Positions 32,005 through 58,766 of a stretch of 64,000 nucleotides of DNA are shown here, piece by piece. Below the pieces are notes generated by a model. The model searched no databases and was not told the DNA's origin. It was given only the letters and a program-made list of their open reading frames with translations. The stretch's first letter is position 1, and every line of letters starts with the position of its first letter. Source of the DNA: Fulvia fulva (taxonomy: Eukaryota > Ascomycota > Dothideomycetes > Mycosphaerellales > Mycosphaerellaceae); NCBI RefSeq assembly GCF_020509005.1, contig NC_063012.1:10416001-10480000 (forward strand), written 5' to 3'. The translations under genes and the position numbers were made by a program.

Positions 32005-33472
32005 TTATGCTTTGGCAGCACCGGCCTTGATAAGTAGGATATCACCATCCTCGACCACATAGTCCTTGCCCTTCGTCATGATCTTACCCTGCGCCTTCAC
32101 AGTAGCCTCATCGCCGAGCTCCTTCAAGATATTGTAGTTGTACACAATACACTGAATGAAAGTCTTCTCAAAGTCACCGTGAATGATACCAGCTGCTTGA
32201 GGAGCCTTGGTGCCGTTTCGTAGTGTCCATTGTCGTACTTCGTCTGTGCCTGTGGTGAAGAAGGAGCCGAGGTTGAGGGCTTTGCGCATGGTGGTGATGA
32301 TCTTGGGAAGGGCAGACTTGGTTCCGAGCTTCTTGGCCTCCTCTTCTGCTTCTGCGTCTGTCTCGAAGCGGGTGAGACGATCCTCAAATGAAACGGAGAT
32401 GGGGATGATTGGGTCGCCGGGAGCGTGCTCCTTTACCCACTCGGCAATTTTGGGCAGGTGCTTGTTCTTTTGGCGGATGTAGTCCTTTTCGCTGAGGTTG
32501 ACGAGGAAGACGACTGGCTTGGCGGAGAGGAGGAAGAGTGGGTTGATGACCTCGACCTAGGGGTGTTCAGGTCAGTAAAGTACAGGGCAGAATTTGCTGG
32601 ACAGTGTATAGATGACAGGGTTGCTTCGAAATCAGATCGGACGTTCTATCACGACACCTCTTGCGTTATATGGTGAGGGTTCTAAGAGCTGGGATTATAG
32701 AGATTGGATCTCTGGTTCATCATGGAAACAGGGGAGAAACATTAGGAAAGGGATGATCAAACGTACCTCTTTCGGTGACCAGTCGTTCTTGCGCACGTCC
32801 TTGCCGGCCTTCAGGTGCTCGAGGATCTTCTCGACTGTGGCTTGCTCTTCCTTGAGCTTCTTCATCTCAAGTGACTGACCTCCTCGTCGAGTCTGCTTCA
32901 CGAGGTTCTCGTGTGCCTTCTCCACGAACTCGATGTCCTTGATTCGAAGCTCTTCGCTGATGATGTCGAGGTCACGGATCGGGTCCACATCTCCCTCAAC
33001 GTGAATAATCTCAGCATCGTCGAAGCAGCGCACGACCTGGAAGACGGCATCGACGGCTCGGATGTGTGACAAGAAAGCGTTACCGAGACCCGCACCAGTC
33101 GAAGCGCCTCGCGTCAGACCAGCGATGTCGTAGACAGTCATGTGGGCGGGCACCTCGGACTTGGGCTTGTACTGCTTGACCAGCCAGTCGAAGCGGTCGT
33201 CGGGCACGATGACACGTGCCTCTTCTGGGTCGATGGTGGCATAGGGAAAGTTGGCAGGATTACCGAGCGAACACTTGGTAAGGGCCTGGAAGAAGGTCGA
33301 CTTCCCTACGTTGGCGAGACCGACCTGTGCGCGGGTGAGTTAGTGTTTCTTCGTGATGGCATGCGCAGAGCACGCACAAGTATGCTGCCGTACATACGAT
33401 CCCACTCTTCAAGTTGTTGCCAGGGCGGCCCAGGAGGACCTTCTCCTGCTTGACCTCCTTCTTGGGCGGCAT
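32005..33472 (-). CDS. OLA1: Obg-like ATPase OLA1 / YchF
   Basis: Three exons: 33472-33398, 33324-32767 and 32556-32005, with introns of 73 and 210 nt, 394 aa, the usual family length. It starts MPPKKEVKQEKVLLGRPGNN. The P-loop GLANVGKST is completed across intron 1. The DIAGLTRGAS switch and NLSEKDYIRQKNK (the NxxE variant that gives ATP over GTP preference) follow. The C-terminal TGS domain ends near QAAGIIHGDFEKTFI. The protein is a ribosome-associated ATPase linked to stress response. The 210-nt second intron is the longest in the window. Confidence 0.96.
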
Positions 33473-57412: not shown

Positions 57413-57420
57413 AAAAAAAA
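57413..57420 (-). terminator. T8 run, probable RNA polymerase III terminator
   Basis: Eight consecutive Ts on the minus strand, about 35 nt after the last acceptor base of the tRNA-Val unit. Runs of six or more Ts stop Pol III in fungi. Confidence 0.6.
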
Positions 57421-57455
57421 CGACCGAGTCGATCTTTCGAACTCATGTACTGAGA

Positions 57456-57588
57456 GGTCTCAGGGGGTTTCGACTGAGGCAGAATTAGTAATTGATAGCG
57501 GCGGCGACATTAATATGAGCACTTACACCCCCGACCTTTTCCGATGCGGAGTGTAAAGGAAACGTCATAACCACTAGACTATGAAACC
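57456..57588 (-). tRNA. Interrupted tRNA-Val (anticodon UAC) gene or pseudogene
   Basis: Reading down from 57588: acceptor strand GGTTTCA (57588-57582); A box TAGTCTAGTGG; D-arm; anticodon stem TTTCC (57662-less: 57562-57558) paired with GGAAA (57542-57538); loop TTTACA with anticodon TAC at 57555-57553. An 8-nt intron (57551-57544) lies at the canonical 37/38 site, with C38 after it. The variable loop is AGGTC. T-stem GGGGG (57532-57528) and T54 are followed by a 53-nt insert, then TCGAAA, CCCCC (57467-57463) and acceptor TGAGACC (57462-57456). The acceptor pairs fully with the 5' strand, with one G-U. Without both inserts the sequence folds as a standard cloverleaf close to yeast tRNA-Val, with B box GGTTCGAAACC. 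As the DNA stands the B box is split, so function is uncertain. The discriminator base is T, unusual for Val. Confidence 0.75.
57474..57526 (-). other. 53-nt spliceosomal-intron-like insert inside the tRNA T-loop
   Basis: Sits exactly between T54 and T55. It begins GTAAGT, has the branch-site consensus TACTAAT about 15 nt before the end, and ends CTCAG. 53 nt is also the length of several protein-gene introns in this window (two in the SDR gene, one in the ABC transporter, one in MAP1). Removal restores the T-loop TTCGAAA between GGGGG and CCCCC. Confidence 0.75.
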
Positions 57589-57826
57589 CGCGAAGTTCTG
57601 GTTGTGGCCAAGCTCAAAAGATATATGTAAGCTCAACTGAAGAGCCGGCCGGCCGCGGGCGACTTCGGCGTCGTTGAGTTAACAGAATCGCTCTCTGTGG
57701 CTTCCTGGTAGTCCAAATCGTTGAGCAGCATGCTTCCAGTTGATAGCGGCGTCTTAGACAGCGATAGAAGGCTCCATGATGGAATCTGAGTTGCAAGAAT
57801 TCATCCATATGATAGTCCGACCATGC

Positions 57827-58516
57827 TCAATATCCGCGGCTAGCACAAGCCAGACACGTCCGCGCAGTACCCAGTATCGCACAAGTATCGCATATTGATC
57901 GTTCGCAGGACGCACACCGTGTCTCCTGGTTCAGGGTATATTCATCGACATCCATAGCATCTTCAGCCCTCAGAGGTCGATCACAATCCTCACAATTCGG
58001 AGGCGTGGTAACCCTCTCAAGATGTTTCGGGCCAGAATCCACCACCATCATCGTCGCAGCCGGCGGTTGACCTATCCGCCAAAAGGAATGCAGCGTGCTT
58101 CGTTGCGGTTGTGTCGGTTGTTGTGCTTGGATGACGGGTTGCGACAGCACGGGCGACGCATCGGGATGTTGTCTTTGCGCTTGATATAATCGATCTATCG
58201 TGCTCGCTGCACGACGACATACGTCAGCTAGACTGCTCATATCCATAATAGCTCCAATCCAGCAAGACACACCATGTATTTGCTCTTCGTCCGGTCTGTT
58301 GTCTCTGTGTCGTTTCCTGGTTCGACTGTTGAGGTGTTGGCTGGATAGGGTGTCGTCGTATGTCGGGAAGGACCATGTTGGCTTTTGATAGAACGGTGCG
58401 ATGGGTTTGCTTTGGTGGTAGAAGGATGGCAATGGGCTGGATTGGGTTGTGGAATCGCTGCTGAGTGAGGATGGCGATGAGAAGCCTGGCGATGATCGCT
58501 TTCGTTTGAGGGCCAT
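57827..58516 (-). CDS. Small conserved-looking fungal protein with C-terminal Cys zinc-binding motif
   Basis: I do not know a function. The start is MALKRKRSSPGFSSPSS at 58516; the frame is open ten codons further up. A putative 66-nt intron (58272-58207, GTGTGT...GTGCAG) has no in-frame stop. Splicing gives EEQIHASTIDRLYQAQ (about 207 aa); retention adds 22 residues. The N-terminus is basic and Ser-rich and could be a nuclear signal. The C-terminus has paired cysteines, CEDCDRPL ... CASCERSICDTC ... CLACA, a likely small zinc-binding fold. DAMDVDE lies between. Confidence 0.65.
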   Translation of the reverse strand: MALKRKRSSPGFSSPSSLSSDSTTQSSPLPSFYHQSKPIAPFYQKPTWSFPTYDDTLSSQHLNSRTRKRHRDNRPDEEQIHGVSCWIGAIMDMSSLADVCRRAASTIDRLYQAQRQHPDASPVLSQPVIQAQQPTQPQRSTLHSFWRIGQPPAATMMVVDSGPKHLERVTTPPNCEDCDRPLRAEDAMDVDEYTLNQETRCASCERSICDTCAILGTARTCLACASRGY

Positions 58517-58766
58517 GGTGCAGGTAGATCGATGTGTGATGGTCAATGTCGTGCTGGTAGAACTTCTGCGCCGTATTGTGTTATGTTTGTATCTTTGTCT
58601 ATGAAGGATAGAATGCCGGCAACGCGTAAAGCAGATCGCGTCGAAACACGAACCCCAGCCACGCGATGACCACTGTAGAACTAGCCGAGCGAAGCTTGCC
58701 CTAGCTTCTCACCACAACAACCAACTACAGACAACTTCCTGCACATCCACCACCAACACATCAAAC

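Follow-up and report, generated by a model that had tools for sequence, protein, structure and literature searches.

A tRNA-Val(UAC) gene split in its T loop by a spliceosomal-type intron, and a probable class of such tRNA genes in Fulvia fulva

We analysed a stretch of 64,000 nucleotides (nt) from the tomato leaf-mould fungus Fulvia fulva (contig NC_063012.1, positions 10,416,001 to 10,480,000; this whole stretch is the window, and its own numbering is used below) that contains a transfer RNA (tRNA) gene for valine, tRNA-Val(UAC), interrupted by an intron of spliceosomal appearance. Judged by sequence, the locus is very likely a working gene, and one of at least 23 F. fulva tRNA genes interrupted by spliceosomal GT-AG introns, which lie at many different sites along the tRNA body. 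The gene occupies 57455..57588 on the minus strand (tRNA positions 1-73 including both introns, delimited by ARAGORN on the sequence spliced in silico and by our own cloverleaf scorer) and reads, from 57588 to 57455, GGTTTCATAGTCTAGTGGTTATGACGTTTCCTTTACA, an 8-nt intron, CGGAAAAGGTCGGGGGT, GTAAGTGCTCATATTAATGTCGCCGCCGCTATCAATTACTAATTCTGCCTCAG and TCGAAACCCCCTGAGACCT. ARAGORN places the anticodon UAC at 57553..57555 and the 8-nt intron (ctccgcat) at 57544..57551, between positions 37 and 38, where canonical tRNA introns lie. The second insert, of 53 nt (57474..57526), lies instead between T54 and T55, splitting the B box, and it has a GTAAGT donor, a TACTAAT branch site and a CAG acceptor. All of these parts, described in the initial annotation, are indeed present on the minus strand. 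On the same strand, a T8 run followed by GCTC (57413..57420), 36 nt past the tRNA, is a probable terminator for RNA polymerase III (Pol III), and a TATA-like element (ATATAT within ACATATATCT, 57620..57627), about 35 nt upstream of the tRNA, is a possible Pol III promoter element.

Removal of the 53-nt insert restores a recognizable tRNA. ARAGORN found no tRNA in the whole window when run without its intron mode, nor in the unspliced 201-base Val locus with the intron modes on, and the unspliced locus scored 17.4 bits against the Rfam tRNA family RF00005, for which the cut-off is 29. Once 57474-57526 had been deleted in silico, ARAGORN called tRNA-Val(tac) with the 8-nt intron, our scorer returned 48.96, and the product formed a cloverleaf with the conserved bases in which every stem pairs, the acceptor stem with one G-U. 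We also moved each end of the deletion from -10 to +10, and among the resulting 441 boundary pairs the full score of 49.0 was obtained from the GT-AG pair alone. Since the next-best pair, with both ends shifted by -1, scored 47.8, the fold by itself fixes the insert boundaries to about one register. We estimate the chance of finding the nine bases of GTAAGT and CAG at boundaries fixed in this way to be of the order of 4^-9.

The Val locus is not an isolated case. The genome searched was that of F. fulva alone (67,169,167 bases in 14 contigs), in agreement with the 67.17 Mb and 14 chromosomes given for the Race 5 assembly of this species, also called Cladosporium fulvum (PMC9453070). The eukaryotic B-box word GGTTCGANTCC occurs at 71 genome sites, compared to 79 for its reversed control, and GGTTCAANTCC at 57 compared to 46 (most of the 57 were left unread). 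Intact B-box words are thus at about background frequency, with little or no excess from intact tRNA genes, and reading of the sites suggested that this is because many of them lie in tRNA genes broken by GTRAGT...CTAAC...YAG stretches. The Rfam tRNA family exceeded its cut-off at no fewer than 22 genome places (63 of 1234 candidates were scored), six of which are copies of one repeat. Our scorer gave 38.6-49.4 at 13 of these 22 places and remained under its print threshold of 28 at the other nine; its noise maximum over 600 shuffled 300-mers was 28.2. Early surveys yielded 10 segments against 2-5 in controls, 18 against 6, 6 and 8, and 15 against 3, 0 and 2. For the controlled survey, the 71 B-box places were reduced to 67 distinct segments, from which zero to four GT-AG introns of 44-80 nt could be removed, a branch-like word being required in each. 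At a score of at least 36, 19 segments were tRNA genes only with introns removed, six were intact and 42 fell below. Controls in which the donor and acceptor were shifted by (4,-5), (-5,3), (6,7) and (-4,-6) gave 4, 0, 2 and 5 split genes, reversed segments gave none, and of 1140 background segments, taken on both strands of 30 loci and with removal of at most two introns, none reached 34.

The final set comprises 23 split tRNA genes with 37 introns and 14 anticodons: the 19 above, minus L027, which was dropped for an implausible anticodon despite a score of 38.7, plus the window gene, L022, L125, L126 and L127, which were reached by other routes. Twelve genes have one spliceosomal-type intron, eight have two and three have three. 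ARAGORN, a program independent of our finder, called the expected isotype in all 23 after in silico splicing; before splicing it called four, two with the right isotype and two with a wrong one. Standard tRNA finders therefore miss such genes, and the count of Rfam places given above belongs to the same picture. Three additional split genes, L130, L131 and L132 (scores 40.2, 45.4 and 43.5), were found after the set had been fixed and are reported apart. The route to them was a D-arm word of initiator type; it has 16 hits, and four of these were examined. The fourth, in L002, is intact according to ARAGORN only, our own finder making no call. Six other loci (L044, L049, L087, L113, L128 and L129) seemed split, or possibly split, when inspected by eye or with ARAGORN, but received no call or a score below 28 from the final finder and are not counted. 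The word YAGTCGANTCC had 155 genome hits, far fewer than the 753 of its reversed control, and no further T54/T55 intron was seen at 37 loci among the 100 hits listed of the 155. A genome search with 12 joined tRNAs, in which 10 candidates were scored, missed genes with short exons.

The 37 introns resemble one another in ways that the search did not impose. The search required GT, AG and a branch-like word, so their presence proves nothing in itself, whereas the spacing from branch to end does count as evidence: the branch A lies 10-13 nt from the intron end in all 37, when 5-30 nt was permitted. The introns are 49-62 nt long, with a median of 53. At the donor, 34 have G as base 5 and 26 have T as base 6, in line with the GTRNGY-like 5' splice site of U2-type introns, and the branch words are CTAAC (20), CTGAC (6), CTAAT (4), CTGAT (4) and TTAAC (3). 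Their sites are in the D arm, at 26/27, in the variable region and in the T arm, and a single intron sits in the acceptor stem (67/68); tRNA numbering is approximate by one or two positions in the variable region and the D loop. Nine introns interrupt the A-box region (positions 9 to about 19), and another three interrupt the B box. The 54/55 site is used twice, in the window Val(UAC) gene and in Thr(UGU) at L126, and neither of these genes has an intact internal B box. Anticodon-loop introns also occur in 20 of the 23 genes by our scorer and in 15 by ARAGORN. The Thr(AGT) gene at L022 has an apparent internal exon of only 8 nt, GCTCAGAG (L022:1461-1468), between two GT-AG introns, a microexon and the shortest internal exon noted. 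We do not use a comparison set of messenger RNA (mRNA) introns drawn from open reading frames (67, then 131 introns), as it was visibly contaminated with coding sequence (GTAAGT donor in 6% of the 131), and we claim no difference between tRNA and mRNA introns.

Paralogous genes provide a sign of function. Four Gly(GCC) genes become identical after splicing to one another and to an intact gene at L011, as do three Asp, two Gln(CTG) and two Thr(AGT) genes among themselves, while the cores of their same-site introns are 46-74% identical; for 3 of 11 same-site intron pairs the identity stays within the 95th percentile for shuffled sequence. The finder set boundaries gene by gene with no comparison of paralogues, and the D-arm intron of L030 can be read with other boundaries. 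A further sign comes from tRNA-Gln and tRNA-Asp. No cell can do without tRNA-Gln, and an uninterrupted Gln D-arm-to-anticodon stretch had no genome hit with up to three mismatches to one degenerate pattern covering both anticodons. A spliced tRNA-Gln must then be made, unless the search overlooked a Gln gene whose 5' half is very different. The main-type Asp stretch likewise had no uninterrupted hit at up to three mismatches. A second Asp-like gene, L092, differs by four bases in this stretch and is itself split at 49/50; an intact gene of the L092 type would escape the Asp search, but would appear among the GGTTCGANTCC sites if its B box matched. On these sequence searches, tRNA-Gln must come from split genes, and very probably tRNA-Asp too. 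At L041 (= L042), on the minus strand, two Gln(CTG) genes form a tandem pair. Its second member contains three GT-AG introns, of which one includes TTTT, scores 34 and is outside the 23; it may be decaying.

We propose that Pol III would transcribe the split tRNA gene through to the T run, probably aided by an upstream TATA element, the A and B boxes being interruptible. The spliceosome would then excise the GT-AG introns of 50-60 nt from the pre-tRNA, the tRNA endonuclease and ligase would excise the 37/38 intron, and end processing would come last. In some plants and fungi, TATA boxes upstream of the gene are important for the transcription of tRNAs (PMC3978253), and such an element may allow a gene whose B box is split, such as the window Val gene, to be transcribed nonetheless. 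TATA-like words lie upstream of 15 of the 23 split genes and 7 of 12 intact ones, compared to 20% of background windows. Rescue of the promoter by a downstream B box (AGTTCGAAAGATC, noted by eye between the window tRNA and T8) was considered and is not claimed, as the trailer of L126 has no room for it. If this route is correct, protein synthesis in F. fulva likely depends on the spliceosome twice, for mRNAs and for Pol III pre-tRNAs: all tRNA-Gln, all tRNA-Asp and much of the rest would be encoded by genes that contain between one and three spliceosomal introns and, in many cases, an endonuclease intron too, and the internal promoter would be dispensable in many of them.

The best surviving alternative, although an unlikely one, is that the split tRNAs derive from RNA polymerase II (Pol II), as exons of longer capped RNAs that undergo mRNA splicing, with no part for Pol III. 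In its favour, the spliceosome normally works in coupling with Pol II, the A and B boxes can be interrupted, and 15 of the genes have TATA-like words upstream. However, a run of at least five T (T5+), each followed by G, lies 6-95 nt past 22 of the 23 split genes (up to 120 nt inspected). The control figures for T5+ are 3.4% for 1500 background windows and 2 of 23 for windows upstream of the genes, and the terminator played no part in finding the genes. A T5+ run is also present downstream of 11 of 12 intact tRNA genes inspected, and the gene for U6 small nuclear RNA (snRNA) ends in T6. L131 and L132 also have a T-run terminator. Moreover, TTTT is absent from all 37 introns, when shuffled introns average 6.1 and were never without it in 500 shuffles, a constraint expected for Pol III but not for Pol II. 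Pol III is favoured over Pol II because of these T-run terminators and the lack of TTTT in the introns. The annotation had proposed, as one of two options, a tRNA made from a Pol II or atypical transcript that needs two different splicing machines; the two machines remain the favoured explanation, whereas a Pol II transcript is less likely than a Pol III one.

Its other option, which we find improbable, was that the window gene is a pseudogene, a tRNA-Val(UAC) copy inactivated by an intron-like insertion and surviving by chance. In its favour, the intron divides the B box, ARAGORN makes no call on the unspliced locus, which also falls below the Rfam cut-off, and the cell may be able to do without Val(UAC) if GUA is read by Val(IAC). 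Against this, all stems pair and the T8 run follows the gene, the same class of intron is found in 22 other tRNA genes, several with identical mature products, and Gln genes exist, by the tests made, in split form only. Nor is the window gene redundant with intact copies: the uninterrupted Val(UAC) D-arm-to-anticodon stretch has a single genome site at up to three mismatches, the window itself, although a sister split inside that stretch would be missed. With at least 23 tRNA genes carrying such introns, and no uninterrupted Gln or main-type Asp stretch, inactivation is disfavoured, and the idea of a snapshot of a single intron gain gives way to a genome-wide pattern. A recent event, also suggested by the annotation, finds no support either, as paralogues share intron sites while the intron bodies have diverged.

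A reading of the inserts as ectopic introns processed by the tRNA splicing endonuclease, as in Cyanidioschyzon or archaea, with an incidental GT-AG look, is very doubtful: such introns are known in algae and archaea (PMC3978253), and an anticodon-loop intron often accompanies the inserts in the same genes, but the endonuclease needs neither the constant branch spacing, nor the G at donor base 5, nor the narrow lengths. The central helix of a bulge-helix-bulge was found at 2 of the 37 introns compared to 1.2 by permutation, a comparison in which the positive control, the anticodon-loop introns, gave 0 of 20.

Several points nevertheless weigh against a working, Pol III-transcribed set of split genes. 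L022 lacks a T5 run within 120 nt, L130 has no terminator in the 40 nt inspected, and an intron of L130 and one of the second tandem Gln gene, both outside the 37, each contain one TTTT. Eight of the 23 genes are not preceded by a TATA-like word. TFIIIC should bind less well to a split B box. For Val(UAC) itself function is not forced, as an intact Val(AAC) gene is present at L004 and Val(AAC) with inosine at position 34 could read GUA. The U6 gene is unsplit. Finally, 18 of the 23 genes were chosen through an intact B-box word, which biases both the intron positions and the share of split genes, and the looser early surveys (ARAGORN as the finder; those with 18 and 10 segments) had noisier controls.

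The nearest precedent is found in fungal U6 snRNA genes, Pol III transcripts with mRNA-type introns that are spliced by the spliceosome. As in the genes described here, a spliceosomal intron interrupts a small fungal gene for a non-coding RNA made by Pol III. The hosts differ: here they are tRNA genes, at least 23 in number and each with one to three introns, and the sole F. fulva U6 match, L133 (C4:1169208-1169308), is uninterrupted, with a TATA-like word upstream and T6 at its end. Canonical nuclear tRNA introns, cut by the endonuclease at 37/38, are likewise found in tRNA genes and likewise restore the cloverleaf when removed, and the Val gene has one of 8 nt; its 53-nt insert, in contrast, is in the T loop with donor, branch and acceptor, and belongs to a class that recurs outside the anticodon loop. 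That canonical tRNA splicing does not use the spliceosome is textbook knowledge, repeated in a 2026 review (PMC13149111). The ectopic and permuted tRNA introns of Cyanidioschyzon merolae, cryptomonad nucleomorphs and archaea also interrupt tRNA genes at various positions, but are mostly tied to a bulge-helix-bulge recognized by the tRNA endonuclease, many nucleomorph ones having no defined motif (PMC3978253), whereas those of F. fulva carry spliceosomal signals.

A plausible source of the tRNA introns is the introner-like elements, spliceosomal introns that spread in F. fulva and other Dothideomycetes and are reported to be probably still active in F. fulva (PMC4457414; also mentioned in PMC3510045). 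The annotation had suggested a search for introner-like relatives of the insert. The tRNA introns are mutually diverged: the best pair is 74% identical, the best match of the window intron is 62%, no near-identical copies were found among the 37, and a DNA search of the genome with the whole locus, which skips very common words, returned only the locus itself. The open-access literature searched, including the available portions of PMC13149111, PMC11782384, PMC3978253 and PMC4035089, yielded no account of tRNA genes with spliceosomal introns; subscription journals were mostly outside this search, so it is weak evidence of absence. As a word, 'tRNA' is absent from the main text of PMC9453070, PMC10823647 and PMC3510045, and that of PMC11694984 mentions only a tRNA methyltransferase. 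If the interpretation is correct, a fungus that needs its spliceosome for tRNAs would join two RNA-processing systems, and two polymerases if Pol III makes the precursors. It would also show how Pol III works with its A and B boxes cut, and would offer a natural experiment on intron gain in a tiny, essential, non-coding target.

Three other observations were made. Six near-identical tRNA-like copies (L014-L019, on contigs 1, 2, 4, 5, 9 and 12) have an anticodon-loop intron of 41-43 nt and the same 60-nt flanks on both sides, as if the gene were carried by a dispersed element. In the window, a neighbouring protein encoded at 57827-58546 on the minus strand is 90% identical to CLAFUW4_02116 of F. 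fulva. Lastly, positions 32628-32727, also on the minus strand, match a C/D small nucleolar RNA related to Afu_304 of Aspergillus fumigatus with 42.8 bits, above the cut-off of 35.
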